39,387 bases of DNA from Gammaproteobacteria bacterium (lineage in GTDB: Bacteria; Pseudomonadota; Gammaproteobacteria; DAOVJZ01): contig JAOUJV010000009.1 in the NCBI GenBank assembly GCA_029882995.1, forward strand, positions 1-39,387, in the 5' to 3' direction. The notes beneath the pieces are model-generated. The model ran no database searches, was not told where the DNA came from, and was given only the letters and a program-made list of their open reading frames with translations. The translations under genes and the position numbers were made by a program. The stretch's first letter is position 1. The number at the start of each line of letters is the position of its first letter. Shown here one piece after another: positions 11,691 to 35,064 of this stretch.

Positions 11691-11996
11691 CCGACTTTGT
11701 CGGCGCTTAATTTCTTATGCGGGGATTCGCCCCCGCACGACGAAACACTTTTCTCTTGGGTGCGCAAGAGAAATACCCACAGGGCACAAGAGTATTCAAA
11801 AGAGAAGGGTGCCCAACGTCACAGAAATCTCCTCGTTGTACAGTCCAAATCCAGATGAATCACAACTCGCGCGCGAGCCTTCGGCTCACACCGGCTCGAA
11901 CAAGGTGATTCATTATTTCTGGATTTGGACTGTACAACGAGGCTGTGCCGGATGGGATGGAACTATCGTCTGCTTTCGGCCAACAGCGGACATTCA
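11691..11996 (+). repeat. Multi-hairpin composite element, copy 1
   Basis: H1 CCGAC-TTT-GTCGG (11691-11703); H2 TGCGGGG/CCCCGCA (11718-11737); H3 TTTCTCTTG/CAAGAGAAA (11750-11773); H4 25-bp perfect arms 11831-11855/11918-11942 plus TGAATCAC/GTGATTCA; H5 TCTGCTTTCGGCCAACAGCGGACATT. Confidence 0.85.
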
Positions 11997-12065
11997 GGAA
12001 TATTGGTGCTTTTCCACCCCACCCATGTTTGTAGTGGCGAATTTAAGTACTAAGTTGACTGGCTG

Positions 12066-12533
12066 TTAGTTAAACAATGCATTACTTATTAAGCCCGCTA
12101 GGGCTCCAAAGCTTAAACAAATTGCAAACCCGAAAAAACCATCGATAACTAAAGTGCGATAATAAATTCCTTTTTCAGTAAATTCTTTTTTTCGCCAACC
12201 ATATAAAGGGTCAAAAAATTTAAACCTTGGAAGTTCCGGTTTCATTTCACTGTGCATCTTTAGTAGATTTAAAGACAATCTAAAAAAGAAAAAAACAGTC
12301 AAAAACCAGCTTAGTACAAAGCTTGCAAGAATACTTATTCCTGATAAAAGTTTTAACCCAGAGATAGCTATATATTCAACGATACTTTGATTTTCGTATA
12401 TATTCTTCCAAAATAACACCAATAGCACGATTGAAATAATTATCGTTATTATCAGGATATAAATAGAAAGCCTTTTGAGAAGATAAAGTATATTTTTTTT
12501 ATTTACTAACGGCTTTCCAAAAAATCCATTCAT
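12066..12533 (-). CDS. Small multi-TM membrane protein, function unknown
   Basis: ORF with several hydrophobic segments and an upstream AGGATG RBS; accessory region. Confidence 0.65.
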   Translation of the reverse strand: MNGFFGKPLVNKKNILYLLKRLSIYILIITIIISIVLLVLFWKNIYENQSIVEYIAISGLKLLSGISILASFVLSWFLTVFFFFRLSLNLLKMHSEMKPELPRFKFFDPLYGWRKKEFTEKGIYYRTLVIDGFFGFAICLSFGALAGLISNALFN

Positions 12534-12554
12534 TTTTCATCCTGTTAAATAGAG

Positions 12555-12583
12555 TGACTACTTTCGGCCAGAAGCTGACGTTC
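12555..12583 (+). repeat. Solo H5-type palindrome (TGACTACTTTCGGCCAGAAGCTGACGTTC)
   Basis: Resembles the H5 module of the composite element; lies between two accessory genes. Confidence 0.6.
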
Positions 12584-12593
12584 AACAGTTAAC

Positions 12594-13085
12594 CTAAGGG
12601 GCATGCTTTTGGCTTGTTTTTTTGCACTGTAAGATTTCTTGTAATCTCTTGTGATGTTCTGTTTTATCTACGCCCTTTGGCGTACTATTGATTTTATCGA
12701 TTAATGCAGCAGCCTCTAATGTGTACTTGCAACCTGCTGTAGCAATAACGCGGCACTGCCAAAAATAGTTCATTCGTTGTTCCCATTGAGAATGCGTTAC
12801 CCTATTAGGCTCTAGTTTGGATACTAAGTTTACACAATGTGTTTCTGCGTCCTTCTTTCTTTTAATGCATTCACTCTCTGTAATTCCGTATTCTGCAACT
12901 TCCTTTGGGCTACACTGGGTAAAATTATCAACTCCGATAATATTTACCAGATTCTCCCTGAAAAGGGTATATTCTTCCTCTGCGAAGGACTCAGCCGAAA
13001 AGAAGATTAGTAATAACGCAAGTAGTCTCATTTTTTGCACACTAGCGATTAGTATATCAGCAAATCTTGACGATGAATTCACCAC
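12594..13085 (-). CDS. Secreted Cys-containing hypothetical protein
   Basis: Signal-peptide-like MRLLALLLIFFSAESFAEEEYT internal to the ORF (the true start may be near 13031); several Cys residues. Confidence 0.55.
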   Translation of the reverse strand: MVNSSSRFADILIASVQKMRLLALLLIFFSAESFAEEEYTLFRENLVNIIGVDNFTQCSPKEVAEYGITESECIKRKKDAETHCVNLVSKLEPNRVTHSQWEQRMNYFWQCRVIATAGCKYTLEAAALIDKINSTPKGVDKTEHHKRLQEILQCKKTSQKHAP

Positions 13086-13104
13086 ATTTTTTATTAATAT
13101 ACTT

Positions 13105-13160
13105 AATGTCTGCTTCGGGTCGCTTTCCGACCTGTCGCTTACCGGCCAGAAGCAGACATT
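13105..13160. repeat. Double H5-type palindrome with perfect 12-bp arms AATGTCTGCTTC/GAAGCAGACATT
   Basis: Arms at 13105-13116 and 13149-13160 with an inner GGTCG-CTTTC-CGACC; overlaps the stop codon of the 13159-13704 gene. Confidence 0.85.
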
Positions 13161-13704
13161 ATCTGTAAAGGTTTTCTTTTTGGCTCTCAGCCTTAATCAC
13201 TCTTTTTTCGATTGGATCCACAATGGCAGTAGTTGTCAGGGCAATACATATAAATCCAAAAAATAAAACAGCATATTTGCTTTTAAACAATGTTTCTTTG
13301 GAGCTAAAGTATTGCCAAAGCATCCCAATAAAGAATCCTGGCGCCGTTGCAAGTGCGCCACCATGCCACATATCTGGCAGGAGCTCTCCAGTGGGAGTCT
13401 TCATAACTGATACTATGGTTCCAATAACTTGACAAATTCCAACCACCAATAGAATTCTCCATATTGGCTTAATCATATTCCACTGCTTTTTTAATGAAAT
13501 ATGCTGCTTGTCGGTAAAGAAAAGAATTGTGTATAGAATTAAACTAATATTCCCTATTATTAAAAAAGCAGTACTCGTATATTTTAGAATTTTTACTTCC
13601 GGATAATAGTAAACATTTATATGATGCGTTATAAACATCAATAAAACGGATATTAATGCTATCAACATGCAATATCCTATTAGTGGTAATTTTCCTTTTT
13701 TCAT
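13159..13704 (-). CDS. Multi-TM membrane protein, function unknown
   Basis: ORF of 181 aa with several hydrophobic segments. Confidence 0.65.
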   Translation of the reverse strand: MKKGKLPLIGYCMLIALISVLLMFITHHINVYYYPEVKILKYTSTAFLIIGNISLILYTILFFTDKQHISLKKQWNMIKPIWRILLVVGICQVIGTIVSVMKTPTGELLPDMWHGGALATAPGFFIGMLWQYFSSKETLFKSKYAVLFFGFICIALTTTAIVDPIEKRVIKAESQKENLYR

Positions 13705-13724
13705 GGTTTTATTATTTTAGACTC

Positions 13725-13754
13725 AATGTCCGCTTTGGGTCGAAAGCAGACTTT
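13725..13754 (-). repeat. Solo H5-type palindrome AATGTCCGCTTTGGGTCGAAAGCAGACTTT
   Basis: GTCCGCTTT/AAAGCAGAC stem with one mismatch; opposite orientation to the copy 1 H5. Confidence 0.75.
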
Positions 13755-13762
13755 TGATGTTT

Positions 13763-14407
13763 CTACTTTATGCCGTATTTTTCCCTGTATGACTGAATCG
13801 CATCTAATGATCCTGACATATGTGATTTTGTTTTGAGGTATTCGATCAGGTTTTCGAGTTTGATGATGCTGGCAACTCTTAGGCCATACATTTGTTCGAC
13901 TTCTTGAATGGCGGAGGTATTTTTCTGGCCGACTTCTTGTCTGTCGAGTGCGATTAAGACACCGGCAGTTTTTGCGCCTTGCAGTTTGATGATGTCGACG
14001 GATTCGCGTACTGATGTGCCGGCAGAGATCACGTCATCAACGATTAATACTTTTCCTTTGAGTTCTGATCCAACAATGATGCCGCCTTCACCATGGTCTT
14101 TGGCTTCTTTACGGTTGAATGCGTAGGGTATGTCGCGGTGGTGGTTTTCAGCCAATGCGATGCTCATGGTGGAGACGAGTGGGATACCTTTGTAGGCAGG
14201 GCCATAGACCATGTCGTATTCGATGCCGGAGTGGATGATGGCTTCGGCGTAGTATTTGCCGAGCTTTGCCAGACTGCCGCCGGTGTTGAACAGGCCGGAG
14301 TTGAAAAAGTAGGGACTGATGCGTCCGGATTTGAGTGTGAATTCGCCAAAACGCAGGACGTTGATGTCGAGGGCAAATTCGATAAATTCATATTGATAAT
14401 CTTGCAT
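13763..14407 (-). CDS. pyrE: Orotate phosphoribosyltransferase
   Basis: [21 protein letters not shown] and [21 protein letters not shown]. Confidence 0.96.
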
Positions 14408-14487
14408 GAATATTCCTGAAACGAAGGTAAATAAGTGAAAACTCCGTTATTATACGTAAAAAAACAATAAGGCAGGAAAAAGATTTA

Positions 14488-15261
14488 ATGCGTGTAATCA
14501 GTGTTAATACCAACGGTATTCGGGCGGCGGCGAAAAAAGGTTTTTTTGAATGGTTGGCACGGCAAAAGGCCGATGTGGTGTGTATTCAGGAGACCAAGGC
14601 GCAGGAGCATCAGCTTTCTGACGGTATTTTTAAACCCAAGGGGTTTCATTGTTATTACTTCGATGCCGAGAAAAAGGGCTACAGCGGTGTGGCGATTTAC
14701 AGCAAAAAAGAGCCGGATAAGGTCACCAACGGGCTCGGTTGGGGACGCATGGATTCGGAAGGTCGCTGGATTCAGGCCGATTTTGGCAAGTTGAGTGTGG
14801 TGTCATTTTATTTGCCTTCCGGCTCTGCGAGTGAAGAACGTCACGCCGATAAAATGAAATTCATGAAACGGCTGGAAAAGGATCTGCTTGCCATGCGCCG
14901 CAAAAAACGTGAATACATTATTTGCGGTGACTGGAACACAGTGCATAAGGAAATAGATATTAAAAACTGGAAGAGTAATCAAAAGAATTCCGGTTGTACG
15001 CCCGCCGAACATGAGTGGCTCGATTGGTTATTCGGCAAGGCCGGGTTTGTCGATGCATTTCGTGTGGTGAACCAGAAACCGGATCAATATACCTGGTGGT
15101 CAAATCGCGGTAATGCGCGCGCGAACAACGTGGGTTGGCGTATAGACTATCATGTAATAACACCGGGACTTAAAGACAAGGTATTAAAGGCGTCAGTTTA
15201 TAAAGAAAAATGGTTTTCGGATCATGCGCCATTGACGATTGATTACGATTACAAATTATAG
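14488..15261 (+). CDS. Exodeoxyribonuclease III family protein (ExoIII/Crc-like)
   Basis: MRVISVNTNGIRAAAKKGFFEWL, VCIQETKAQ, CGDWNTVHKEIDIKNWKSNQKNSG, SDHAPLTIDYD. Confidence 0.93.
   Translation: MRVISVNTNGIRAAAKKGFFEWLARQKADVVCIQETKAQEHQLSDGIFKPKGFHCYYFDAEKKGYSGVAIYSKKEPDKVTNGLGWGRMDSEGRWIQADFGKLSVVSFYLPSGSASEERHADKMKFMKRLEKDLLAMRRKKREYIICGDWNTVHKEIDIKNWKSNQKNSGCTPAEHEWLDWLFGKAGFVDAFRVVNQKPDQYTWWSNRGNARANNVGWRIDYHVITPGLKDKVLKASVYKEKWFSDHAPLTIDYDYKL
15224..15260 (+). repeat. 37-bp perfect direct repeat, left copy (3' end of the exoIII gene)
   Basis: ATGCGCCATTGACGATTGATTACGATTACAAATTATA, identical to 15869-15905. Confidence 0.97.
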
Positions 15262-15297
15262 AAAGGGAAGTAATCAGGATATTTAAAGAGGAAAGGA

Positions 15298-15849
15298 ATG
15301 GATACATATAAGATTAAGGAACCTGATGACAAGTTAATTATTCTTAGAGAGCGTTATCTGATTATACGTATCCTGCGATTATTGATATTGCCTGCTGGAT
15401 TATATATAGCTGTTCTGGGGAGTGATGCCACATCATTATTAAGATTTCCCGATCTGTTTACTCGTATCTTTGGTGTTGGGATGGCATTGGGAGGAGCCTA
15501 TATGTTTCTGGTGTCCGTGGTTACGATAGATAAGAAGAATAATAAGGTAATTGTAGAGAAGAAATGGATGTACTCTAGATTCAATCAACAGGAGTGGCAA
15601 TTTTCAATTTTTACTATTGTCAATGTTTGTGAATGGGTCGGTCAAGGTAACGAAGTTTTTAATACTCCTCAAGGGGCAAGAGCAACATTTGACGATATTT
15701 TTTTACAAGGTGAGAATGCAAAACTTCATTTAGCCAGAGTTAGGAAGACAAGATTAATAGGTGCTGGACAAGCAGAGGCACTAGCCCAGAGGATTGCTGA
15801 CTATACCAATTTGCCACTGGAAAAAACTTATTTAGAGAAAGCGCCATGA
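15298..15849 (+). CDS. Two-TM membrane protein of unknown function
   Basis: 183-aa ORF with an N-terminal hydrophobic hairpin, lying between the two copies of the 37-bp repeat. Confidence 0.65.
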   Translation: MDTYKIKEPDDKLIILRERYLIIRILRLLILPAGLYIAVLGSDATSLLRFPDLFTRIFGVGMALGGAYMFLVSVVTIDKKNNKVIVEKKWMYSRFNQQEWQFSIFTIVNVCEWVGQGNEVFNTPQGARATFDDIFLQGENAKLHLARVRKTRLIGAGQAEALAQRIADYTNLPLEKTYLEKAP

Positions 15850-15868
15850 AACCAGTAGTTATCAAGTT

Positions 15869-15905
15869 ATGCGCCATTGACGATTGATTACGATTACAAA
15901 TTATA
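15869..15905 (+). repeat. 37-bp perfect direct repeat, right copy
   Basis: Identical to 15224-15260; runs into TAAATG, the start of the MFS gene. Confidence 0.97.
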
Positions 15906-15906
15906 A

Positions 15907-17259
15907 ATGATAAAAACCCTGCACAGTTGGCAAGAGGCATTACGTGTTTACCTGAAACCGCGTGTGATCACCATGCTGTTTCTGGGCTTCTCTGCCGGTC
16001 TGCCTTTTTTATTGGTGTTCTCAACCTTATCGGCATGGCTGACGGATGAAGGTCTGACACGCAGTGCGATTGGTTTTTTCAGCTGGGTCGGGATTACGTA
16101 TTCTATAAAGGTATTCTGGTCGCCGGTGATTGATCGCCTGCCGTTATTTCCATTTACGCATTTACTTGGCCAGCGCCGTGGCTGGATTTTGCTTGCACAA
16201 ATCGGTATTGCCTGCGGTTTGCTCGGCATGGCGTTTTCCGATCCGAATCAAAACCTGACAGCGGTTGCGTTGTTTGCATTACTGGTCGCGTTTTCTTCTG
16301 CGACACAGGATGTGGCGATTGATGCCTATCGTATTGAAGCAGTAGAAAAGGAACTGCAGGGTGCAATGGCGGCAAGTTATATTTTCGGTTATCGCGTGGC
16401 ATTGCTGGCGGCCGGTGCCGGTGCGTTTTATATTGCCGACTTTACCAATTGGCAAACAGCTTACATATCAATGGCAGGGTTGATGTTGGTTGGCATTGTT
16501 ACCGTGTTATTGATTGCAGAGCCGGAGCGAAAAGTCAGTAATGAAACCATGATGCAGGAACAGCGTGTGATTGACTACATGGAACGGTCTGCGCATTTAC
16601 CGGATTATGTGCGTACCGCTGTTTCGTGGTTTATTGGTGCAGTCGTCTGTCCGTTTATCGATTTTTTCAAACGTAATGGTTCATTGGCATTGGTGATTTT
16701 GTTACTGGTCGGTGTCTATCGTATCAGTGATATTACGATGGGTGTGATGGCCAATCCGTTTTATCTTGATCTGGGTTTCAGCAAGGTGGAGATTGCCAAT
16801 GTCAGTAAAATATTCGGTTTCTTCATGACCATCTTTGGTGCCGGTCTGGGCGGTATACTGGTGGTACGTTATGGCATTATGCGGCCGCTGTTACTCGGTG
16901 CGATCATGGTATCGGCGACTAATTTGTTGTTTGCGTATATGGCGAGTGTGGAACCCAACCTGACTTTGCTGGCCATTGTGATCAGCGCAGATAATTTAAG
17001 CGGTGGTCTGGCCGGTGCCGCGTTTATTGCCTATCTTTCCAGTCTCGTTAATACTGCCTATACCGCAACCCAGTACGCCTTGTTCAGTTCCTTAATGACA
17101 CTGCCGGCAAAATTCCTCGGCGGTTTTTCCGGTATTGTGGTTGATAGTCAGGGCTATGCCTTCTTTTTCATTTACGCATCATTGGTGGGTATCCCTGCTA
17201 TTTTACTGGTGCTTTATCTAATGAAAAAAAATAATGTCGACAAAGAACTAAATAAATAA
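15907..17259 (+). CDS. AmpG-family MFS transporter
   Basis: 12-TM-like; LGFSAGLPFLLVFSTLSAWLTDEGLTRSAIGFFSWVGITYSIKVFWSPVIDRLPL and SSATQDVAIDAYRIE. Confidence 0.9.
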   Translation: MIKTLHSWQEALRVYLKPRVITMLFLGFSAGLPFLLVFSTLSAWLTDEGLTRSAIGFFSWVGITYSIKVFWSPVIDRLPLFPFTHLLGQRRGWILLAQIGIACGLLGMAFSDPNQNLTAVALFALLVAFSSATQDVAIDAYRIEAVEKELQGAMAASYIFGYRVALLAAGAGAFYIADFTNWQTAYISMAGLMLVGIVTVLLIAEPERKVSNETMMQEQRVIDYMERSAHLPDYVRTAVSWFIGAVVCPFIDFFKRNGSLALVILLLVGVYRISDITMGVMANPFYLDLGFSKVEIANVSKIFGFFMTIFGAGLGGILVVRYGIMRPLLLGAIMVSATNLLFAYMASVEPNLTLLAIVISADNLSGGLAGAAFIAYLSSLVNTAYTATQYALFSSLMTLPAKFLGGFSGIVVDSQGYAFFFIYASLVGIPAILLVLYLMKKNNVDKELNK

Positions 17260-17262
17260 TCT

Positions 17263-17964
17263 ATGCACGATCACAGTACCATGGTAATGGACGAGATCAC
17301 GCTGGCAGCGGCGTTTCTTGTTGGTCTGTTTGGCAGTACTCATTGTGCCGGTATGTGCGGCGGGATTGTGAGTGCATTAACAATTGGTTTACCTGAAACC
17401 GTGCGTGGTCGTGTCATGCGCATGTTGCCGTTTGTGCTTTTATATAATATCGGTCGTGTTGGCAGTTATGCTGTTGCCGGTTTACTGGTGGCCGGTATTG
17501 GTTCACTGGTTGTCGATATGGTGGATATCAAGGCGCTGCGTTTTTATGTCGCGCTGTTTGCCGGTGGTTTTATGATCATACTGGGCTTGTATATTGCCGG
17601 TTGGTGGCAGGGGCTTTTAAAAATAGAAAACCTCGGTGGCCATGTCTGGAAACACATTGAACCGGTTGGCAGAAAATTTTTACCCATTAAAAATTATCAT
17701 GGCGCATTAATAGCCGGTGTTATCTGGGGCTGGATCCCGTGCGGTATGGTTTACACTGCGTTAGTTTGGACACTCACCGCCAGTTCATCCACACAAGGCG
17801 CATTACTCATGGTGAGCTTCGGACTCGGCACCGTCCCTGCCATGTTATTCATGGGACTTGCGGCCGGCAAACTGGTGGGGACATTACAAAAGCCACTGGT
17901 GAGGCATATCGCAGGTGTAACGGTTATTGCGTTTGGAATTTATAGTTTGTGGCGTGTCTTGTAA
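17263..17964 (+). CDS. UreH/DsbD_2-type transmembrane protein (sulfite exporter TauE/SafE family annotation)
   Basis: FLVGLFGSTHCAGMCGGIVSALT and WGWIPCGMVYTALVWTL. Confidence 0.85.
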   Translation: MHDHSTMVMDEITLAAAFLVGLFGSTHCAGMCGGIVSALTIGLPETVRGRVMRMLPFVLLYNIGRVGSYAVAGLLVAGIGSLVVDMVDIKALRFYVALFAGGFMIILGLYIAGWWQGLLKIENLGGHVWKHIEPVGRKFLPIKNYHGALIAGVIWGWIPCGMVYTALVWTLTASSSTQGALLMVSFGLGTVPAMLFMGLAAGKLVGTLQKPLVRHIAGVTVIAFGIYSLWRVL

Positions 17965-17967
17965 GGA

Positions 17968-18570
17968 TTATTTTCTGCTAAACCGATAAAGTGCCAGCTC
18001 ACCAAACAGATTCGGTAATACTCTCATAGTGGTACTGGTCTTGTGTTCAGCTGTTACCACTTCACGTTGCAGAATTTTTATATTTTTATCCCGACACAGT
18101 TGCTCAAAGTCACTCAGAGTACAAAGGTGAATATTGGGCGTGTTGTACCATTCATAGGGGATCGCACCATAGACCGGCATATGACCGCCAAGTGCAATAT
18201 GCAGGCGTGCCCTCCAGTGACCGAAGTTGGGGAAGGTGACAATACCTTCACGACCAACACGCAGCATTTCTTCAATGAGTTTATCCGGATGATAAATGGC
18301 CTGCAGTGTCTGGGTCATGACAACATAATCAAATGACTCTTCATCAAAGTCAGACAGGCCGGCATCAAGGTCGGTCTGGATTACGTTGAGATCTTTTTTC
18401 AGACATTCCAGAATTTTGTTGGTATCAATTTCGAGACCATAGCCATTAACACCGTGTGCATCACGCAGGTGTTTTAACAGTGTGCCATTACCACAACCCA
18501 GATCGAGTATTCGACTGTTAGGTTTGATCCAGTCGCTGATAATGGCAAGGTCGCGTCTTAATTCAGTCAT
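17968..18570 (-). CDS. metW: Methionine biosynthesis protein MetW
   Basis: RILDLGCGNGTLLKHLRD; adjacent to metX. Confidence 0.93.
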   Translation of the reverse strand: MTELRRDLAIISDWIKPNSRILDLGCGNGTLLKHLRDAHGVNGYGLEIDTNKILECLKKDLNVIQTDLDAGLSDFDEESFDYVVMTQTLQAIYHPDKLIEEMLRVGREGIVTFPNFGHWRARLHIALGGHMPVYGAIPYEWYNTPNIHLCTLSDFEQLCRDKNIKILQREVVTAEHKTSTTMRVLPNLFGELALYRFSRK

Positions 18571-18571
18571 G

Positions 18572-19705
18572 TTATTTCACATTCGCCATATAGGCTGAGA
18601 AAGTATCCATGTAATAAGGTATTTTCATCAAAAAGGCATCATGTCCCTGATCGGCTTCCACTTCGATATAACTGAAGTCCTTGTCGTTATCATGTAGTGC
18701 CTTCACGATCTCTTTTGAGCGTTCAGGTGCGAAACGCCAGTCAGTGGTAAATGAAATCACCAGTGATTTGGTTTTGATATGCGCCAGTGCCTTGGTCAGA
18801 TCATTATCGTAGTCGATTGCCGGATCAAAATAATCCAGTGCCTTGGTCATTAACAGGTAGGTGTTGGCATCAAACCGGTCAACAAATGACTGACCCTGAT
18901 AACGCAAGTAACTCTCGATCTGAAACTCGACATCAAATCCGTAATTAATTTTACCTTCACGTAATTCACGTCCGAACTTGCCGCGCATGGCGTCATCCGA
19001 CAAATAGGTAATATGGCCAAGCATGCGCGCGATCATCAGACCGCGTTTGGGCACGGTATTGTGTTCGTGATAGCGGCCTTCATAAAACTCCGGATCCGTC
19101 ATGATGGCCTGACGTGCCACCTCATTAAAGGCAATGTTCTGTGCTGACAAACGCGGTGCAGCGGCGATAATGACGCTGTGGCGTAGTCGATCCGGAAAAT
19201 CAATCGCCCACTGTAGTGCCTGCATGCCGCCAAGTGATCCACCAACGACGGCAGCAAACTGATCAATACCGAGTGCATCAGCCAGTCGTGCCTGACTGCG
19301 CACCCAGTCTTTCACTGTGACAATGGGGAAGTCGGGACCATAGGGCTTGCCGGTTTCCGGATTGATGCTCATTGGTCCGGAAGAACCACTGCAGCCACCC
19401 AGATTATTTGAACAGACAACAAAGAAGCGATTGGTATCAATCGGTTTGCCCGGTCCGATACAGTTTTCCCACCAGCCGGGTTTCTTGTCTTCCATGCTGT
19501 GATAACCGGCGGCATGGTGATTACTGCTCAAGGCGTGGCAAATCAGGACAGCATTGGACTTGTCGGCATTGAGCTGACCATATGTTTCATAAATGAGCTC
19601 GTATTCCTTTAATTCACGTCCGCAGTCGAGCGCCAGCGGCGACTCAAACTTCTGTACGCTGGGACTGACAATACCAATGGAATCGGCAGGAATAGTGTCT
19701 GGCAT
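18572..19705 (-). CDS. metX: Homoserine O-acyltransferase (MetX family)
   Basis: [44 protein letters not shown]. Confidence 0.95.
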
Positions 19706-19797
19706 TTTGGGGCAGATCTGCTCTTGTTATCTAAGAGATAAGTCTAAGGTAGCAAGCCCGATCGGGCAAGAAGAGAGATCGTATCTGAAATGGAGTT

Positions 19798-21747: not shown

Positions 21748-21916
21748 AGTTTTTCCAGTAAATTCAGTAAGTAACAGCTATACCCGTTATATCGAGTCAT
21801 ACGGGGTAAAACTGAAGTAAATCAGCTAAAAACGGTGCCGTAGTGTGAACCTTGCCTCACTTTTCAAGGGGTAAAATGCAGTCGGGGAGTTGTTTTGGCG
21901 CCGGTATACGCAGGCG

Positions 21917-22495
21917 TTATCCGGCAAAACTGCGTGCAAGTGCAACGATGGGTGGTATGACCAGCATCTTGGCAATTTGCAATGCCAGCAGGGCGGCAAT
22001 GGGTGACAGATCAAATCCGGCAATAGGCGGGATCAATCGACGGAACGGGCCGAGTACCGGTTCAGTCAGGCTGTAAAGTATTGCAGTGATCGGGTTGTAG
22101 CTGCCGGGATTGATCCAGCTCAGAATAACCTGAATCAGGATACCAAAAACAAATATATTGAAAACCAGAGAAACTGTTTCAGCGACTGCCAACACCAGTA
22201 ACATCCCGATGGTAAACATGCCGCTGGATAGCAAACCGATCACGCTGAGTTTGATTAATTGTAATACGATCAGCAAGACAACACATGATGTATCTATTTT
22301 ACCCACGGAGGGAATGACGCGTCGTAAGGGGATGAGCAGCGGACTTGTTACCTTGACAATAAATTGTGATAACGGGTTATAAAAATCAGCACGGATTAAT
22401 TGAAATATAAAACGCAGCATCACAACCAGTATGTAAAGATCAAACAGGGTTGAGATAAGAAACACAAGGGGATTGGTCAGATAATCATTGCCCAC
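21917..22495 (-). CDS. YggT family membrane protein
   Basis: Two repeats of the YggT type: FIFQLIRADFYNPLSQFIVKVTSPLLIPLRR and ILSWINPGSYNPITAILYSLTEPVLGPFRRLIPPI. Confidence 0.93.
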   Translation of the reverse strand: MGNDYLTNPLVFLISTLFDLYILVVMLRFIFQLIRADFYNPLSQFIVKVTSPLLIPLRRVIPSVGKIDTSCVVLLIVLQLIKLSVIGLLSSGMFTIGMLLVLAVAETVSLVFNIFVFGILIQVILSWINPGSYNPITAILYSLTEPVLGPFRRLIPPIAGFDLSPIAALLALQIAKMLVIPPIVALARSFAG

Positions 22496-24112: not shown

Positions 24113-24192
24113 TATTATCTTCTATACTTAATTTGTTCGTTTCTGAGCCGATAAGAATGGAACTATCGAAATAATATAACAGGGGATCTTCA

Positions 24193-25230: not shown

Positions 25231-25271
25231 TATTATTTTACAGCCCTTAAGGCACGGAGCCGGTAACCATG

Positions 25272-26408: not shown

Positions 26409-26475
26409 ATTGCCAATGATTGCATCTATCCATGAGTAACTCATTGTATTTATTATTATTATTTAAAATCTGATT

Positions 26476-26492
26476 TGTCAGATAATTTTACA
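26476..26492 (+). promoter_or_regulatory. Candidate upstream activator site 1 (TGTCAGATAATTTTACA)
   Basis: 15 of 17 positions match the site at 26621-26637; imperfect dyad TGTCA...TTACA. Confidence 0.45.
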
Positions 26493-26620
26493 CCTAATAT
26501 AAACTAGTCCAGTCTACCATTTTCACCTTTATATATAACTAACATACTGTTTTATATAGAAACAATCTATTATAAGTTGCTGATATATAAGTATTTACTA
26601 ATATTCTTTGGGAAAACAGT

Positions 26621-26637
26621 TGTCAGAAAACTTTACA
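26621..26637 (+). promoter_or_regulatory. Candidate upstream activator site 2 (TGTCAGAAAACTTTACA)
   Basis: Same orientation as site 1; about 75 bp upstream of the sigma-54-like element. Confidence 0.45.
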
Positions 26638-26711
26638 GATCGTAAGCAAAAAACCAGATGGAGTGAATAATCAGTTATATAACCTATTGTTTTAAAAGTA
26701 ATTATTATTTT

Positions 26712-26727
26712 AGGCATGTTAATTGCA
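26712..26727 (+). promoter_or_regulatory. Candidate sigma-54 (-24/-12) promoter AGGCATGTTAATTGCA
   Basis: GG-N10-GC spacing, close to TGGCAC-N5-TTGC; about 95 bp upstream of the VPLPA-CTERM start codon. Confidence 0.5.
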
Positions 26728-26820
26728 CTAGAGATATAAATTTTATTAAAGAAAACCACATGAAAGAATATTAATAATCTGGAAATTGTGGGGAGTGTTG
26801 TCAGGTTTTGGAGGAGTAAT

Positions 26821-27426
26821 ATGTCGGTTATTAGAAAAAATATATATGCCTTATTGGGCCTGATGTTGTTCGTGGTGGCGGGCAACACCAATGCCATATC
26901 AGTAAATTACATAAGTTATAAGATTACAGGTGAGGTGGTTAGCGCAGGTTCTAACCCGTTTGGGCTGGTTGACGGTAGTCTGGTTACCGCTACAGGTATA
27001 ATTAGTGATGTCGGATCGGGTTATCAGATAGTCGAAGGCTCCTTGATTGGTGGCGATGCGACAGGCACATTGGCATTCGGTGCTGGTATGGAGAATACCA
27101 TGACCATTACTGTTGGTAATACAGTCTTTGATGCTTCAAATGATGTTAATTTTGGTACAGGTTCACCGACATTTCATTTAACCAGTGGTGTACTGGATGG
27201 ATTTGAGATACTTATGTCAGCCGGAGTGAATGGTGCAACTGATAATTTCTACTCTTCTTTACCCGTTGGTGAAAGTGTTTTCCGATTTGGTGATAATGAT
27301 ACATTTGTTGGTTACTGGAATACAGGAATTGAAATTATTAATCCAAACCCGGTTCCGGTTCCGGCTGCTGTCTGGTTGTTCGGCTCGGGTCTTCTGGGCT
27401 TGATTGGTTTTGCCAGACGCAAATAA
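26821..27426 (+). CDS. VPLPA-CTERM (PEP-CTERM-like) sorting domain protein
   Basis: Signal peptide; C-terminal NPVPVPAAVWLFGSGLLGLIGFARRK (motif, TM, basic tail). Start at ATG 26821 after GGAGGAG. Confidence 0.9.
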   Translation: MSVIRKNIYALLGLMLFVVAGNTNAISVNYISYKITGEVVSAGSNPFGLVDGSLVTATGIISDVGSGYQIVEGSLIGGDATGTLAFGAGMENTMTITVGNTVFDASNDVNFGTGSPTFHLTSGVLDGFEILMSAGVNGATDNFYSSLPVGESVFRFGDNDTFVGYWNTGIEIINPNPVPVPAAVWLFGSGLLGLIGFARRK

Positions 27427-27451
27427 TCAGAAATAAAATAACCGACATAAA

Positions 27452-27480
27452 AACGACAGCCAAGGCTGTCGTTTTTTTTT
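27452..27480 (+). terminator. Rho-independent terminator
   Basis: AACGACAGC-CAAG-GCTGTCGTT followed by a T-run. Confidence 0.9.
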
Positions 27481-27621
27481 AGATAGTTTGTACAAAAGTC
27501 TTTTCTTCTAATACTGCGTCAAAATTTAGCTCAAAATGCTCATTTACTAACGTGTAAACTCCGCTTTTTCGCTTATTTTTTCCTTGTCTTAAAAGAAAAT
27601 CCAATTCGTACAAAGCTATCT
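27481..27621. repeat. About 140-bp imperfect palindromic intergenic element
   Basis: Ends AGATAGTTTGTAC...GTACAAAGCTATCT; inner TTTTCTT/AAGAAAA and TTTAC-TAACGT-GTAAA. Confidence 0.7.
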
Positions 27622-27645
27622 ATATGTGCTAGCTTTGATAAATCG

Positions 27646-28512
27646 TTATCCAAAAACAGTATCTCCTTTGAACACAGGTCCATCCACACATACCCGTTTC
27701 ATCGCCATACCATTGTCTGTTTGAACGGGTACGGTACAACCGGCACAGCCACCGACACCACAGGCCATGAATTCTTCCAACGAGAGTTGTGATGGGAGAG
27801 AATATTCTTTGGCCAATTTGGCAACGGCTTCCAGCATTGGGTGCGGTCCACAGGAAAATATTTCCACTTCACCGCGCTGTTGTTCATCCAGTGCATTGAG
27901 CCATGTGCGTGCGAGATCAGTAACGTAGCCATTAAAACAACCGGGATAATCCTGCAGGCTGGCAAGACGACATGGGATACCCCAGTCTTCCATTAATGGC
28001 ATGGTGCCAATCACACCTTCCGGTATGCCGGGTAATATAAATTGTGATGGTTGTTGTTTGAATGGAAAAGGGACTTCCGAACCCAGTATAACAAAAGGCT
28101 GGTGCGTTTTTTTCTTGCGTAGTTCATCAGCAATAAAAATCATGGGCGGCATACCAACACCACCACCAATCAAAAGTGGTCGGGTTTTATTTTCATTGAA
28201 TGTAAAGCCATTCCCAATAGGACCCAATGTGCTGAGTTTTTCACCTGGCTTTCTTTGTGCCAGCAAGCGTGTCCCGTTACCAACCGCCTTATAGAGCAAA
28301 TCTACCCACCCGGCGTTGCTGTCAACACGCATAATGGAAATCGGGCGGCGCATCGGTAAAGCCGGATCGCAGGTGATATGCATAAAACTGCCCGGTTTGG
28401 CGTGCTGCGTACATTTGGGCGCATGGATACGCAAAACATACTGATCGCCAGCAAAACTTTCATGAGAAAGTATTTCAGCATTTTCGAGAAAAATAGTGGC
28501 GCGATGTGACAT
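27646..28512 (-). CDS. pyrK: Dihydroorotate dehydrogenase electron transfer subunit-like (FAD/[2Fe-2S])
   Basis: MRRPISIMRV, LIGGGVGMPPMIFIADEL, C-terminal CGVGGCAGCTVPV...CVDGPVF iron-sulfur motif. Confidence 0.88.
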   Translation of the reverse strand: MSHRATIFLENAEILSHESFAGDQYVLRIHAPKCTQHAKPGSFMHITCDPALPMRRPISIMRVDSNAGWVDLLYKAVGNGTRLLAQRKPGEKLSTLGPIGNGFTFNENKTRPLLIGGGVGMPPMIFIADELRKKKTHQPFVILGSEVPFPFKQQPSQFILPGIPEGVIGTMPLMEDWGIPCRLASLQDYPGCFNGYVTDLARTWLNALDEQQRGEVEIFSCGPHPMLEAVAKLAKEYSLPSQLSLEEFMACGVGGCAGCTVPVQTDNGMAMKRVCVDGPVFKGDTVFG

Positions 28513-28567
28513 ATTAAAAACGTTAAATTAAGTGGAAACGATAGTTAAAAATATTCCAGCCTGAAAT

Positions 28568-29842
28568 TTATTCACCAAATACCAGTCGACCTTTGTGCAG
28601 GGTATGCGTGACCTTGCCCTTGAACTCCCAGCCAATAAAGGGTGAGTTCTTGCCACGACTTGTCATGGTTTCTGCGTTCAATTGCCAGCTTTTATCCGAA
28701 TCAAAAATACACACATCGGCTTGACCACCTTCACTTAAGGTGCCTGCATCAATGTTCAGGATTTGTGCCGGTTTGCAAGTTATGCTGGCCAGCATATTAC
28801 TTAAGGTCATTACACCCTCATCGACCAGTCTTAATCCAAGTGGCAGCAGGGTATCAAGTGATGAAATACCCGGTTCAGCCAATGCAAACGGGGTCAGTTT
28901 GGCATCCAGTTCATGTGGTTGGTGGTCAGAACAAATGGCCGCAATTGCTCCCTTGGCAATACCATCGCGCAAGCCGTCACGATCTCGCTGTGAGCGCAGA
29001 GGCGGTTCAACAAAACCATTGGTATTGTAATCGCCCAATTCCATTTCAGTCAGGAACAGGTGATGGGCAGTGACATCAGCACTGATTGGATGTCCATCAT
29101 GAATGGCACGACCGACCATCTGGACTGCACGTGCAGTTGAAAGATGATTAAAGTGGACGCGTACACCGGTTTCTGCTGCCAGTGCAATATAAGTGGCAAC
29201 GGCAACCGTTTCTGCTGCCTGCGGAATACCTCTTAACCCAAGACGTGTGCTCAACTCACCTTCATGTGCTGTGCCGCCATCCCGCAAAACCGGATCTTCA
29301 GGTTGTATAAAGACAGTTAAATCAAATGTCGCTGCATATTCCATGGCGCGGCGCATAATCACCATGTTCTCAATCGGGTGCATGGCATTACTGACACCGG
29401 TACAACCGACTTCCTTAAGGGCGGCCATTTCACTTAAACGACTTCCGTCCAGCCCCTGAGTCAGCGCACCAAGAGGTAGAATCTGTGCATAGCCATAATG
29501 TTCGGCACGATCATAAATGGATTCAAAAACAGCCTGTGTATCAATAACCGGTTGGGTATCGGGTGGACAGCACAGTGTCGTAATCCCATTACTGGCCGCG
29601 GCCAGTGTTTCACTTTTTATTGTTGCCTTGTGTTCCTGACCCGGTTCACGCATGCGGGCACATAAATCAACCAGACCGGGACAGACAATCTTACCTTTTG
29701 CATCAATAGTTTTTTCGGCATCAAATCCGGCGGGCATTTTCCCAACCGATAAAATTTTTCCGTCAGCAATATAAACATCATGTTTGGCATCTATATTATT
29801 GGCCGGGTCAATCACATGTCCGTTTTTTATGATGAGTTTCAT
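28568..29842 (-). CDS. pyrC': Dihydroorotase-like protein, probably catalytically inactive PyrC'
   Basis: Dihydroorotase fold motifs ([20 protein letters not shown]), but the HxH metal motif is replaced: [15 protein letters not shown]. Overlaps pyrB. Confidence 0.85.
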
Positions 29843-30828
29843 GATGCATGCTCCTGACCATGACGATTTCCCATGATCATGGCCATGATTGCCATACGTA
29901 CTGCAATGCCGTTTGTTACCTGTTCAAGAATGACCGAATGTGTTCCATCTGCTACTTTTGAATCCATTTCGACACCACGATTAATCGGGCCGGGGTGCAT
30001 CACCATGACATCCGGTTTGGCGAACTGAAGTTTTTCTTCGGTCAGGCCATAAAGGTGGAAGTATTCATGCTCACTCGGCAAAAAGGCACTGGTCATGCGT
30101 TCACGCTGTAAACGTAGCATGATAATGACATCCACATCCTTAATACCTTCACATAAATCGTGATAAACATGCACACCGAGTTTTTGTACATCACGCGGTA
30201 ATAATGTCTTGGGAGCAACCACCCTGATTTCAGCCGCACCGAGAGTTGATAGTGCATGAATTTGTGAACGTGCAACACGTGAATGCATGACATCACCGAC
30301 AATGGCGATACGTAAATTGTTAAATTCCTTTTTATGACGACGAATCGTAAACATATCCAGCATTGCCTGTGTCGGGTGGGCATGTCGTCCATCACCGGCA
30401 TTGATAATACGTAAATGAGGTGCCACATGTTGAGCAATGAAGTGAGCGGCACCGCTATTGTTGTGTCGAACCACAAACATGTCGCAGTTCATGGCCTCAA
30501 GATTACGCAGTGTATCCAGCAGGGATTCACCCTTGGAGGTCGCAGAAGTATTGATATTCAGATTGAGTACGTCTGCCGACAGGCGCTTGGCCGCAACTTC
30601 AAATGTGGTACGGGTGCGAGTACTGGCTTCGAAAAACAGGTTGGCGACAGTGACACCACGCAGAAGCGGAACTTTTTTAATGGCCTGTTCAGCCACACTG
30701 GAGAAGGATTCGGCGGTATCGAGAATTTCGGTAAGAAGATCGGATTTGAGGCCCTCGATCGTCAAGAAGTGGCGAAGGCGCCCGTTTGAATCTGTTTGCA
30801 GTTTGCCTGAGGCTTTCTTTGGGTCCAT
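29839..30828 (-). CDS. pyrB: Aspartate carbamoyltransferase catalytic subunit
   Basis: [56 protein letters not shown]. Confidence 0.97.
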
Positions 30829-30929
30829 TTATACCTACCGCGGCTATTCTAGTTGAGGCGCGGCCGGGTTTCCATAGCAATTTTAAAAAACAGGAAAATT
30901 AATCGTGTCGGGATGTGGTTTTGGTCAAC

Positions 30930-31433
30930 TCAGACCTTCTGGATAATCAGGCTCAGATTGTCCGGGCCATTGAGCTTGATGTGTTCATTTGCGGCCAGTT
31001 CTACATGTTTCCCGGTGATATTGGCCTCAATCGGGAGTTCACGGCCACTGCGTTCCACCAGTGTAACCAGATACACCGCTGCCGGACGACCATAATCAAA
31101 CAGTTCATTCATGGCGGCACGGATAGTGCGGCCTGTGTGCAGGACATCATCGACCAGAACAATATGCCGATTATCCAGATTGAAAGGTAGTTTGGATGGT
31201 TTAACCTGCGGGTTAATACCAATACGGCTAAAGTCATCACGGTAAAACGAGATATCAAGCAGTCCGAGCGGTTCCTTGATGGCCAGCATGGTATGTAGTT
31301 CTTTCGCCACCCAGGCCCCACCGGTATGAATACCGATCATGAGTGGATCGCTGATCGACTTTTCCTTAAGCAGCTGCTTCAGATCGAGTGTAATTTTGTC
31401 CAGCAATTGCTGGGTTTCTGTATCATTGCTCAT
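30930..31433 (-). CDS. pyrR: Bifunctional pyr operon regulator/uracil phosphoribosyltransferase PyrR
   Basis: ISFYRDDFSRIGINPQVKPSKLPFNLDNRHIVLVDDVLHTGRTIRAAMNELFDYGRP. Confidence 0.95.
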   Translation of the reverse strand: MSNDTETQQLLDKITLDLKQLLKEKSISDPLMIGIHTGGAWVAKELHTMLAIKEPLGLLDISFYRDDFSRIGINPQVKPSKLPFNLDNRHIVLVDDVLHTGRTIRAAMNELFDYGRPAAVYLVTLVERSGRELPIEANITGKHVELAANEHIKLNGPDNLSLIIQKV

Positions 31434-31852
31434 GTATGTAATCCGTTTTCATTTAGCCATGTCTGCAAAATGAGTTGTGCCGCTATTTCATCGGTTTGAT
31501 GCTGTGCACCTTTATCCTGTTTTATCTGTTCTGCCTCTATAGATGACAGTCGTTCATCAATCCAGATAACATCCAGATTGTAACGCCCATTTAGCTGATT
31601 GCCAAAGCGGCGTGCCTTTTTACACATGTTACTTTCAGTACCATCCATATTAAGTGGCAAGCCGACAATAAACAATGCAGGTTGCCATTGTTCAACCAGT
31701 TGACTGATCCCGTCCCAGTCCGGTGCTCCCTTGACTGTTTTGAGTGTTGTCACTGGGGCTGCAGTCGCTGTTACTTCCTGTGCAACTGCAACACCAATAC
31801 GTTCTTCGCCATAGTCAAAACCAAGTATGGTACGTGCTGATGTTGTATTCAT
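31430..31852 (-). CDS. ruvX: Holliday junction resolvase RuvX/YqgF
   Basis: LGFDYGEERIGVAVAQEVTATAAPVTTLK, VGLPLNMDGTESNM, WIDERLSSIEAE. Confidence 0.95.
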   Translation of the reverse strand: MNTTSARTILGFDYGEERIGVAVAQEVTATAAPVTTLKTVKGAPDWDGISQLVEQWQPALFIVGLPLNMDGTESNMCKKARRFGNQLNGRYNLDVIWIDERLSSIEAEQIKQDKGAQHQTDEIAAQLILQTWLNENGLHT

Positions 31853-31865
31853 GCAGTGAGCAGAA

Positions 31866-32429
31866 TCAGGCGTGACCCATATCGCCGGAGATCAGTTTCA
31901 GGTCAACACCAATAACAGAAGCGGCGGATTCCCAACGTTTGTCATACGCGGTATCAAAAATGATATCGATATTGGCAGGGCCAGATAGCCAGGCATTCTC
32001 GCTGATTTCATATTCCAGCTGACCTGCTTCCCAACCGGCATAACCGAGTGCAATCAAAAATTTTTCCGGTCCCTTGCCTTGCGCAATGTCTTCAATAATA
32101 TCACGTGAAGTGGTTACCGCCAGTTCATCCGAAATGGGCATGGTGGATTCCCAGTCACCATCAGGCTTGTGCAAAACAAAACCGCGTTCGACTTGTACCG
32201 GGCCACCATAATAGACATGTTTTTTTTCCAGCTCCTTGTCTTTGGTTTCAATTTCCATGTGTTTGAACACCTCACCCAAATCAATATCCAGTGGGCGATT
32301 GAAAACAACACCCATTGCTCCCTCATCATTATGCTGACATATCAGCGTAACTGTGTGATAGAAATTCGGGTCCTCAAGAGCCGGCATGGCAATAAGAAAA
32401 TGACCAGTCAGATCTGTCGTTGCATCCAT
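31866..32429 (-). CDS. YqgE/AlgH family protein
   Basis: LTGHFLIAMPALEDPNFYHTVTLICQHNDEGAMGVVFNRPL. Confidence 0.95.
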   Translation of the reverse strand: MDATTDLTGHFLIAMPALEDPNFYHTVTLICQHNDEGAMGVVFNRPLDIDLGEVFKHMEIETKDKELEKKHVYYGGPVQVERGFVLHKPDGDWESTMPISDELAVTTSRDIIEDIAQGKGPEKFLIALGYAGWEAGQLEYEISENAWLSGPANIDIIFDTAYDKRWESAASVIGVDLKLISGDMGHA

Positions 32430-32474
32430 ATATGAATAGTATCCTGTAGTCAGCCGTAACTGGCAAGCACCACT

Positions 32475-33362
32475 TTAGCGGCTTCTCAGACTGTTATTAT
32501 CGAGGAATTGCCAGGTTCTTGATATCACCAGTACATCCACATCCTTGCGTATATTATCAGGGAACGGGGCAAACGGAGCGGCCAGCCTCACAATCCGGAT
32601 AGCGGCGTCATCCAGTATCTTGTTGCCGGAAGAACGACGAAGTGTAATGTTATTCACCGTGCCATTGGCATTCAGTACAACATCCATTAACAGGTTGCCG
32701 GTCAGATTACGTTGTTTGGCGGCTTCCGGATAATTGATGTTACCAATGCGTTCTACCTTGGCACGCCACGCCTCCATATAACTGGCGTATTTGTATTCAC
32801 GTGTGTTGGCGGCAATGCGTTTACTGCGCAAGTTGCTCGAATGCATTTGCTGGCGCTCATTCATTTCCGCATTCAGACTGGCGACTTCCATGCTGCTGCT
32901 GATCAATTCACGTGCATTGGGCAAACGCTTTTTTTCAACCTGCTGGTTTTTTTCCTTTATACGGGTATTGATGTCATAAGAATCACGTTTTGTTGTCAAT
33001 GTGTTTTTGATCAACTGTTGTTTGCGTGGTGTTGCCTGCATGGCAGGACGAAATGCCTCGGCACGATCCGGTACTGGCGCGGTAAACGGTTTGGCTGTCG
33101 GACTGGTGGGGCGTAATTTATTTTTGGTATTACCGCCACCAATCTGGTTTACCTGTGCGAGATAGTCTTCCTTAACAGGTGCCTGCTCGCTCTTGCTATG
33201 CACCAGAGTGATTTCCAGCGGTGGTGATTTGCCGGATGATTTGTCCTTTAATACTGTAAAGGTAATTCCCAGAATCACAATTGCATGCAGGATGACGGCA
33301 AACAGCAACGTCATCCCGAGGCGGTCATCCGGTGTTACTTGTGTTGTTTGTGCTACTGACAT
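32475..33362 (-). CDS. TonB family energy-transducer-like protein
   Basis: N-terminal TM; C-terminal NYPEAAKQRNLTGNLLMDVVLNANGTVNNITLRRSSGNKILDDAAIRIVRLAAPFAPFP. Confidence 0.9.
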   Translation of the reverse strand: MSVAQTTQVTPDDRLGMTLLFAVILHAIVILGITFTVLKDKSSGKSPPLEITLVHSKSEQAPVKEDYLAQVNQIGGGNTKNKLRPTSPTAKPFTAPVPDRAEAFRPAMQATPRKQQLIKNTLTTKRDSYDINTRIKEKNQQVEKKRLPNARELISSSMEVASLNAEMNERQQMHSSNLRSKRIAANTREYKYASYMEAWRAKVERIGNINYPEAAKQRNLTGNLLMDVVLNANGTVNNITLRRSSGNKILDDAAIRIVRLAAPFAPFPDNIRKDVDVLVISRTWQFLDNNSLRSR

Positions 33363-33885
33363 CCTGAGTTTGTATTCTATTTAATAGTGTTCCGGCAATT
33401 ATACCTGTCAAAATCCCGGCCAAAACAGCCGCAGTCATAAATAAGGGTAGCATTTTAAACATGGCCGGGTGAGGTAAAAACAGCAGATATGCCATGAAAA
33501 ACTGTCCTGCCATGTGGGCACAGGCAGCAAACACGGCATAACTGACTGCACCAAAGCTGATAAAGGGTAATATGGTGTTTAACTGACTCAAAACAACCAG
33601 TACTACCACACTCGCTGTCGCTCCGGTCAGGCTCAACATGAATGTGGGCGATAAAAACGTACCCAGCACTATACTCCCGATCAATACCCTTAATAGAGAC
33701 ACCCAGATCGCCGTTTTTATCCCGTAACGTACCAGCACCACAACGGTGATGATATTCGCCAGACCGGGTTTGATACCGGGCAGGGGAGTGGGGAGCGTAC
33801 TTTCCAGCACATGAATCGTAACAGCAAGTGCTGTCAGCCAGGCGATGAGGTGATCTTCACGGGTAGTGGTGAGAGTCAGGTTCAT
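33325..33885 (-). CDS. Gx transporter family / heptaprenyl diphosphate synthase component I-like membrane protein
   Basis: LESTLPTPLPGIKPGLANIITVVVLVRYG. Start set at MNLTLTTTRED; the ORF upstream of that runs into repeat sequence. Confidence 0.88.
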   Translation of the reverse strand: MNLTLTTTREDHLIAWLTALAVTIHVLESTLPTPLPGIKPGLANIITVVVLVRYGIKTAIWVSLLRVLIGSIVLGTFLSPTFMLSLTGATASVVVLVVLSQLNTILPFISFGAVSYAVFAACAHMAGQFFMAYLLFLPHPAMFKMLPLFMTAAVLAGILTGIIAGTLLNRIQTQDVSSTNNTSNTG

Positions 33886-33904
33886 GGGGGTTATTATAGT
33901 GGGT

Positions 33905-34200
33905 GTCACTGCGTGACGGCTTGATTTTTTATGCGGGGATTCGCCCCCGCGCGACGAAATACTTTTCTCTTGCGCACCCAAGAGAAAAGTATTCAAAAGA
34001 GAAGGGTGCCCAACGTCACAGAAATCCCCTCGTTGAACAGTGAAAATCCAGATGAATCACAACTCGCGCGCGGCCTGCGGCCACACCGGCTCGAACAGGG
34101 TGATTCATTATTTCTGGATTTTCACTGTGCTACTCGGCTGTGCCGATGGGAGAGAAAAACATCAAGTACTTTACTTCTGCTTACGGCCAATAGCGGACAT
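33905..34200 (+). repeat. Multi-hairpin composite element, copy 2
   Basis: H1 GTCAC-TGC-GTGAC (33905-33917); H2 GCGGGG/CCCCGC (33932-33951); H3 ATACTTTTCTCTTG/CAAGAGAAAAGTAT (33959-33992); H4 ACAGTGAAAATCCAGA/TCTGGATTTTCACTGT (34037-34052/34113-34128); H5 TCTGCTTACGGCCAATAGCGGACAT. Confidence 0.85.
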
Positions 34201-34265
34201 TTAACATGTTTAGCTAAGAGGCCGCACGGTTAGCGTGGTCCTACTCCTTAAGCGCATTGTTATGC
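34199..34265 (-). other. Candidate integron attC recombination site
   Basis: Minus strand: GCATAAC AATGCGCTTAAGGAGTAGGACCACGC TAAC CGTGCGGCCTCTTAGCTAAACAT GTTAAAT. Terminal core-like sites, imperfect palindrome, 3 nt after the stop of the upstream gene. Confidence 0.55.
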
Positions 34266-34268
34266 GAT

Positions 34269-34664
34269 TTAGCTCTCAAATTCATTCTTTACATCTTCCC
34301 TCAGAAGAACATATATCAAAAATATTGGTACCATTAAAAGTGATATATAGAAAGATATGTTACCTATCCCTTCAACGACCGAATTAGTTGATGAATTAAA
34401 ATCTATAACCGCAAGCATTACCATACATAGAAATCCAATAATGAGAATACCTAAAATAGATTTTCGCGCCCAATTTTTCCCTTTCCATATAAAGGCAGAA
34501 AGAAACACTGCAAGTATCCCTGTTAATATAAGAAGGATGTGAATTAAAGGCATAATCGAATTATCTGTTATTTCAAGATTTGTTGTTAGGATTGCGCCGC
34601 CTAACGAGAAACTTGAACCCGAAATACCGAAAAATAATGCTAGCGCCTTACGCCAAGAATTCAT
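34269..34664 (-). CDS. Small four-TM membrane protein, function unknown (cassette-like gene)
   Basis: 131-aa ORF with about four hydrophobic segments; GTTATGC 12 nt upstream of the start and an attC-like site just after the stop. Confidence 0.65.
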   Translation of the reverse strand: MNSWRKALALFFGISGSSFSLGGAILTTNLEITDNSIMPLIHILLILTGILAVFLSAFIWKGKNWARKSILGILIIGFLCMVMLAVIDFNSSTNSVVEGIGNISFYISLLMVPIFLIYVLLREDVKNEFES

Positions 34665-34769
34665 ATTTTGTTACCCGCATAACTATAAGTAGACCCCCTA
34701 AATGGGGTGAAAGAATACGTTATATGTGAGATATATAATACGGCGTCTCCCAAGCTATTTAAAGAACGA

Positions 34770-35064
34770 CTGTCTGCTATGGGTCGACATCGGTCATTTA
34801 TGTTACCAGTATTTTGGTTTTTTATCCCGTCAGATGAAGCCGAGCATCGCAGACAAAATCAGAAGAAGCAATCACCCTGTTCGAGCCGGTGTGGCCGCAG
34901 GCCGCGCGCGAGTTGTGATTGCGCTGATTTTGGCGAGAAGCGCAGGGAATTGTGCGGAGCACAACAAGTCTTCGGGAAAATGGTTTTGGGTACTTTTGCC
35001 GAAACAAAAGTACCCCGTGGTGTGGGCACGGAAAGCCCACATATGAAACCGTCGCGTTAGCGAC
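34770..35064 (-). repeat. Multi-hairpin composite element, copy 3 (inverted)
   Basis: H1 GTCGC-GTTA-GCGAC (35051-35064); H2 TGTGGGC/GCCCACA (35021-35041); H3 GGGTACTTTTG/CAAAAGTACCC (34988-35015); H4 CAAAATCAG/CTGATTTTG (34854-34862/34924-34932) around the same core; H5-like TGTCTGCTATGGGTCGACATCGGTCATT. Confidence 0.82.

Follow-up and report, generated by a model that had tools for sequence, protein, structure and literature searches.

The window analysed here is a stretch of 39,387 nucleotides (nt), positions 1 to 39,387 of contig JAOUJV010000009.1, from assembly GCA_029882995.1, the draft genome of a gammaproteobacterium (2.42 Mb in 175 contigs; G000 below). It contains three copies of a modular repeat, named c1, c2 and c3, in which a series of palindromic modules, H1 to H5, follows one module order. 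An original prediction made from the sequence alone had described these modules, and all of those it named are found in place, including the H4 arms with their conserved core and a 5-nt bulge (TTATT, TTATT and TTCTT in c1, c2 and c3, respectively). No protein encoded in the window accounts for the repeat.

Copy c1 (11691..11996, plus strand) runs from H1 through H2, H3 and H4 to H5. Its H1 is CCGAC-ttt-GTCGG (11691..11703) and its H2 TGCGGGG/CCCCGCA (11718..11737). The H3 region (11750..11814) comprises a stem, TTTCTCTTG/CAAGAGAAA, an insertion, a purine linker and then GGGTGCCC, while H4 (11831..11942) has an arm of 25 base pairs (bp), TGAATCAC/GTGATTCA, together with the conserved core and the TTATT bulge. 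The H5 of this copy lies at 11969..11994. Copy c2 (33905..34200, plus strand) is composed of H1 (GTCAC-tgc-GTGAC, 33905..33917), H2 (33932..33951), H3 (33958..34011), the H4 arms and core (34037..34128) and an H5 (34176..34201) that adjoins an attC-like sequence. Copy c3 (34770..35064) is on the minus strand, as are its H1 (GTCGC/GCGAC, 35051..35064), H2 (TGTGGGC/GCCCACA, 35021..35041), H3 stem (GGGTACTTTTG/CAAAAGTACCC, 34988..35015) and H5 (34771..34795). It also has an additional hairpin, HpB (TTGTG/CACAA, 34950..34964), which belongs to a predicted three-way junction. The H4 unit of c3 (34839..34943) is modelled as GCGCTTCTCGC-s1-s2-AACTC..GCTCGAACA-s2'-TTCTT-s1'-TCTGCGATGCTCGGC, with the TTCTT bulge at 34863..34867. 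Between c2 and c3 lies a cassette-like open reading frame (ORF) on the minus strand (34269..34664) encoding a hydrophobic protein of 131 amino acids (aa).

The copies fall into two subtypes that contrast in the sequences flanking the H4 arms. In subtype A, comprising c1 and c2, the H4 arm is long and ends CCTCG; in subtype B, comprising c3 and a copy on contig C33 of the same genome, the arm is flanked by GCGCTTCTCGC..CGATGCTCGGC. Subtype B is the class-wide form, and GCGCTTCTCGC and CGATGCTCGGC are the conserved ends of the H4 unit. Although H5 is present in the copies, its description as one of their modules needs amending, as this REP-like palindrome (REP, repetitive extragenic palindrome) is a separate repeat that occurs alone many times; the leading GAGGGG palindrome is likewise separate and also found alone. 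On the minus strand at 11968-13751, after pyrE (14407-13763), H5 palindromes, one of them double, stand between three small ORFans in series, and a similar ORFan series on C33 is spaced by the same double H5. The copies fold much better than dinucleotide-preserving shuffles: the predicted folds of c1 and c3 as RNA have energies of -130.1 kcal/mol (z -8.3) and -101.0 kcal/mol (z -4.7), and that of c2 as DNA -62.8 kcal/mol (z -6.7).

Because MAFFT places AACTC wrongly when distant units are aligned, the H4 unit was modelled from a seed of five compatible units, c3 included, of three genomes, giving the covariance model R1. R1 matches c1 at 11836-11938 (plus), c2 at 34030-34138 (plus) and c3 at 34839-34943 (minus, 115 bits), and it recovers the copies of subtype A as well as units from many other families. 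The three copies first noticed are thus real but are not the full set: the genome has no fewer than eight H4 units, besides truncated ones, and a genus-mate (G001, matching record DAOVJZ01 of a Granulosicoccaceae metagenome-assembled genome) has at least four. In a class-wide sample, R1 matches at E<=1e-4 occur in 43 of 370 genomes and 37 of 272 genera, a lower bound with about ten candidates scored per genome; the E-values are rough, and about 0.04 genomes are expected by chance. Units outside the seed score as low as E ~1e-26 (G149) and ~2e-20 in a family without seeds (G122), and all 12 of 12 chosen genomes are positive. One genome (G072) carries 32 units, of which the nine inspected all have unrelated flanks. 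A gapped pattern made of two subtype B outer sequences matches seven of 369 gammaproteobacterial genomes and its reversed control none; nearly all of the listed matches repeat the anatomy with different stem sequences, and one locus (L060) is without the AACTC core. Matches in a phylum-wide scan, for which the make-up of the sample is not shown, are confined to the same class.

No known family corresponds to the repeat in the collections searched. None of the 4227 Rfam covariance models has a gathering-level match in the window, and five distant loci give no relevant Rfam match at E<=5. Exact-core scans of viral and GTDB contigs return only the genus-mate, besides three isolated stretches that carry the short search pattern without the unit architecture. 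There is no match to c2 in plasmids or phages, to the full G149 element in plasmids or to the class-wide unit pattern in viral contigs, and a literature search that included sequence strings found no relevant paper on the repeat. As far as the literature and databases could be searched, the repeat is real, widespread and unnamed.

The H3 stem is present as predicted, but a helix between its loop and downstream sequence had been overlooked, and this helix makes H3 an H-type pseudoknot. The pairing partner of the loop is a GGnnnCC run immediately beyond the purine linker. In c2, a stem of 13-15 bp encloses the loop GCACCC, which pairs with GGGTGC beyond the linker CAAAAGAGAA; corresponding pairs are GGCCACC/GGTGGCC in G149, CGCCC/GGGCG in G345 and AGCG/CGCT in the C33 copy. 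This helix covaries too, averaging 4.79 bp versus 3.31+-0.17 for shuffled partners (29 distinct cases, 0/5000), and it is lost in c1 and a few other units. The linker also shows mirror similarity to the purine arm of the stem (8.10 versus 6.44+-0.29), with a reciprocal swap in G121. A direct-repeat match is weaker but still above chance (7.43 versus 6.39) because the cores are nearly mirror-symmetric, and base triples between linker and stem are consequently only suggested. The H3 stem lengths and the 9-10 nt linker suit the strand that reads from H1 to H5; the reverse strand was considered as the pseudoknot strand and set aside, as it would require a third loop of zero length. Viral frameshift sites include H-type pseudoknots with a purine-rich third loop, which H3 resembles in its stem lengths and purine linker, with the difference that H3 belongs to a repeat.

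A pseudoknot whose purine linker mirrors a purine arm, as in base-triple pseudoknots, would suit a structured noncoding RNA or 3'-untranslated-region element, as would the conserved loops and bulges. Such an element would be transcribed with the upstream gene, its pseudoknot and three-way junction would affect termination, stability or a bound protein, and its spread would be incidental. The absence of a match in the Rfam searches above speaks against this explanation, as do the substitution pattern of the stems and the arrangement of the units, and it is considered unlikely.

Covariation of the stems was evaluated in 98 aligned units (88 distinct). Stem cells are paired in 92.4% of cases; the corresponding figures are 58.9+-0.8% when partners are shuffled and 35-43% when they are slid. 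Each of the 21 modelled pairs changes on both sides, and double-change cells number 568 versus 157. Because this alignment was fitted to R1, the pairing test was repeated with anchor and fixed-position segments from 43 representatives less than 80% alike. This alignment-free partner shuffle gives 8.42 versus 4.33 for s1, 6.5 versus 4.09 for s2 and 4.88 versus 3.78 for the apical stem, and shuffled values reach the observed ones in 0/300. Both tests ignore phylogeny, for which the slid control corrects in part. The paired substitutions originally noticed over several independent stems therefore stand well above shuffled and slid controls on a wide alignment.

The kind of pairing that is kept bears on its cause. 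Among 58 deduplicated units, s1 has 491 Watson-Crick cells, 2 G-U and 12 A-C, and s2 has 386, 8 and 9, so that G-U makes up 2/493 (0.4%) and 8/394 (2.0%) of the paired cells. Stems in RNA usually exchange their pairs by way of G-U, and the near-absence of G-U in s1 and s2 suggests that pairing is kept at the DNA level and not by ordinary RNA compensatory evolution. The short helix 1 (TCGC/GCGA), with 170 Watson-Crick, 17 G-U and 9 A-C cells (9.1% G-U), favours an RNA element. Where two units are 85-95% alike outside the stems, double changes are already at least as frequent as single ones, which likewise counts against an RNA element.

Watson-Crick-only covariation is what would be left by template switching that copies one palindrome arm onto the other, in which case the palindromes would be passive, with no selection on the fold. 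Template switching is a documented source of compensatory stem changes (PMC8794818). Changes do occur in both-sided blocks, as between c3 and the C33 unit (91.5% identical otherwise; 6 double changes, 1 single), and the long outer P1 arms vary between units in G080. Conversely, the most alike units (95-100% outside the stems) show 2 single and 0 double changes, the helix of the pseudoknot does not nest within any palindrome arm, and arm copying leaves the convergent pairing described below unexplained. Repeated copying should also erase the asymmetric bulges, the AACTC/GCTCAAACA loop and the spacer lengths, all of which are kept across families. Template switching as the whole explanation is thus quite improbable, and a maintained single-strand shape with Watson-Crick stems is favoured. 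The conservation of bulges and internal loops alongside the stems fits the earlier proposal that a folded structure is maintained. That structure may be any of the three forms offered there, RNA, single-stranded DNA or a cruciform; the scarcity of G-U in s1 and s2 argues against ordinary RNA compensatory evolution and the conserved pseudoknot against a simple cruciform, and templated arm correction could also yield Watson-Crick-only covariation.

The units have a strongly oriented arrangement that, like their class-wide breadth, the original prediction had overlooked. In a hand count of neighbouring units within 3 kb, 32 pairs are convergent, 1 divergent and 0 tandem; the divergent pair (G089) spans hemE and is not a cargo pair. 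A transcript across a convergent pair would hold one unit antisense, a further point against an RNA element, while the location of 51/68 scored units 3' of an adjacent gene on the same strand is in its favour. At L101, L103, L104, L105, L161 and L162, elements are present in full, with inverted ends of about 200-266 bp that are 76-90% identical. Paired units are separated by 45-400 bp or by 0.7-2 kb with passenger genes, which are ORFans in G000, G035, G023, G166 and G080. The pair in G398 (L162 1-2901, G398:C63) bounds an FRG-domain protein of 367 aa (PF08867, 1e-18; PADLOC PDC-S15, 8e-41) whose gene is, from these profile matches, a candidate defence gene.

Several further features were seen at the edges of units. 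In G072 (L059, L065, L069, L073, L074 and L076), several copies start directly after the intrinsic terminator of the upstream gene, and some copies carry the terminal TTCATCGCG..GGCGGGAAA again, in inverted orientation, at their far end. In G080 and G175 (L058, L064, L078, L079 and L112), each unit is enclosed by its own near-perfect palindrome of 15-29 bp, whose outer sequence varies from unit to unit. At L105 and L162, a common GTCATTCC..GGAATCCA palindrome lies at the outer edge of some elements and suggests nesting of several repeat families.

The c2/c3 locus can be compared with its counterpart in the genus-mate, where the flanking genes are conserved (84% and 81%). A c2-like unit is present there, c3 is missing (G001:C53) and the middle gene is unrelated to the ORF of the window. 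Upstream of the middle gene in both genomes is GCATAACTATAAGTAG, which resembles GGCATAACTATAATTAG beside the integron integrase on G000:C8; this attI-like sequence lies at 34677-34692 in the window. An attC-like half is 3' of the middle gene and adjoins the H5 of c2 (34199-34269). From these similarities, the locus looks like an integron relic whose integrase has been lost. The C8 locus (L214) has a complete integron integrase (TIGR02249, 3e-141), an attI-like site and at least two cassettes.

This context raises the question of whether the units, as relatives or secondary targets of integron attC sites, fold as single strands that the integron integrase uses to exchange small ORFan genes. 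Units and attC sites share a single-strand fold, variable yet complementary arms and conserved extrahelical bases, and the gene that differs at c2/c3 lies between an attI-like sequence and an attC-like half. A complete integrase is found in G000 and overall in 17/23 positive versus 4/14 negative genomes (Fisher p 0.015), a small, uncorrected comparison that is confounded by phylogeny and in which the negative genomes were not randomly chosen. However, six positive genomes are without a complete integrase, a search of ten integrase loci with R1 yields no unit, and the cassette junctions of the C8 array are, by eye, ordinary attC-like sequences and not units. Moreover, units are inverted whereas attC sites are direct, and no R or L boxes are seen in the unit. 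A relationship with attC is therefore very improbable.

The repeat can also be compared with other small repeats. REPINs and bacterial interspersed mosaic elements (BIMEs) are inverted REP doublets mobilised by a REP-associated tyrosine transposase (RAYT). Like them, the repeat is intergenic, palindromic and multi-copy, prefers gene 3' ends and forms inverted doublets with hairpin ends, as 32/33 close neighbours are convergent. The unit differs in being about 300 bases long with a pseudoknot and a bulged arm, whereas REPs measure 20-40 bp (PMC3733652). The REP palindrome of that length with a GTAG/CGTC tag is not seen here; the opposite strand of H2 starts CGTC, in one module only. RAYT was also rejected as the mover. 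Its Y1_Tnp domain is present in 20/23 positive and 8/14 negative genomes, but none is found in G000 (99.98% complete), G072 or G080, so RAYT is not required, and the only RAYT locus read fully (L052) is not flanked by units. Coxiella QMITE1 and QMITE2 are similar in having 150-400 bp, inverted ends, transcribable hairpins, intergenic locations and no transposase inside. QMITE1 is defined by terminal inverted repeats of 21-28 nt and short direct repeats and reportedly has no orthologues in other genomes (PMC5896051). In the present repeat, by contrast with both QMITEs, what is conserved across many families is the fold rather than the sequence. Mobile insertion cassettes are passenger genes between the ends of miniature inverted-repeat transposable elements (MITEs). 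They resemble the pairs with inverted ends around transposase-free passengers (the FRG-domain gene of G398 and the ORFans of G035, G023 and G166), and differ in that the ends here are multi-hairpin units and not terminal repeats derived from an insertion sequence, no relative of which was found.

Taken together, the repeat is probably, by a modest preference, a non-autonomous mobile DNA element, MITE-like or REPIN-like, with long folded inverted ends and a usual location at gene 3' ends. What is observed directly is the anatomy of the units, their covariation and convergent pairing, their many copies at unrelated sites and a single presence/absence difference (c3), and the pairs have terminal inverted repeats, a feature of MITEs. 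Several observations weigh against mobility. The conserved pseudoknot with its purine linker looks RNA-like, no transposase or recombinase is found inside the examined pairs, solo units such as c1 exist, and c3 is the one clear presence/absence difference found. No clean target-site duplication is apparent by eye, the outer edges merging into other palindromes, and an integron relic explains the gene swap at c2/c3 without the element, so that cargo carriage gains no support from this pair.

Under the mobile-element interpretation, the ends would be inverted copies of the folded unit (H1, H2, the H3 pseudoknot, HpB and the bulged H4 arm), a full element would be a convergent pair with 0 to about 2 kb between, and solo units would be remnants or halves. 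A putative enzyme encoded elsewhere may recognise the single strand in its folded form, by way of the bulges and the AACTC/GCTCAAACA internal loop, and move the pair into gene 3' ends, in the manner of a REPIN or a hairpin-ended MITE. Stem sequences would be free to drift because shape is what is read, and arm-templated DNA repair may help keep the stems Watson-Crick paired. More tentatively, a putative recombinase could recognise the ends by shape, through the bulged hairpin and pseudoknot, and the element could carry small passenger genes, among them the candidate defence gene, from one gammaproteobacterium to another.

At least 37 of the sampled gammaproteobacterial genera share this one conserved fold, which would make the repeat a widely distributed structured element of intergenic DNA that Rfam lacks. 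The nearly Watson-Crick-only covariation of its stems provides a natural test case for RNA-shape selection, single-stranded DNA hairpin selection and template-switch repair, three causes that are not told apart by standard covariation statistics. Should the pairs move cargo, ORFans and defence genes would have a new route by which to spread.

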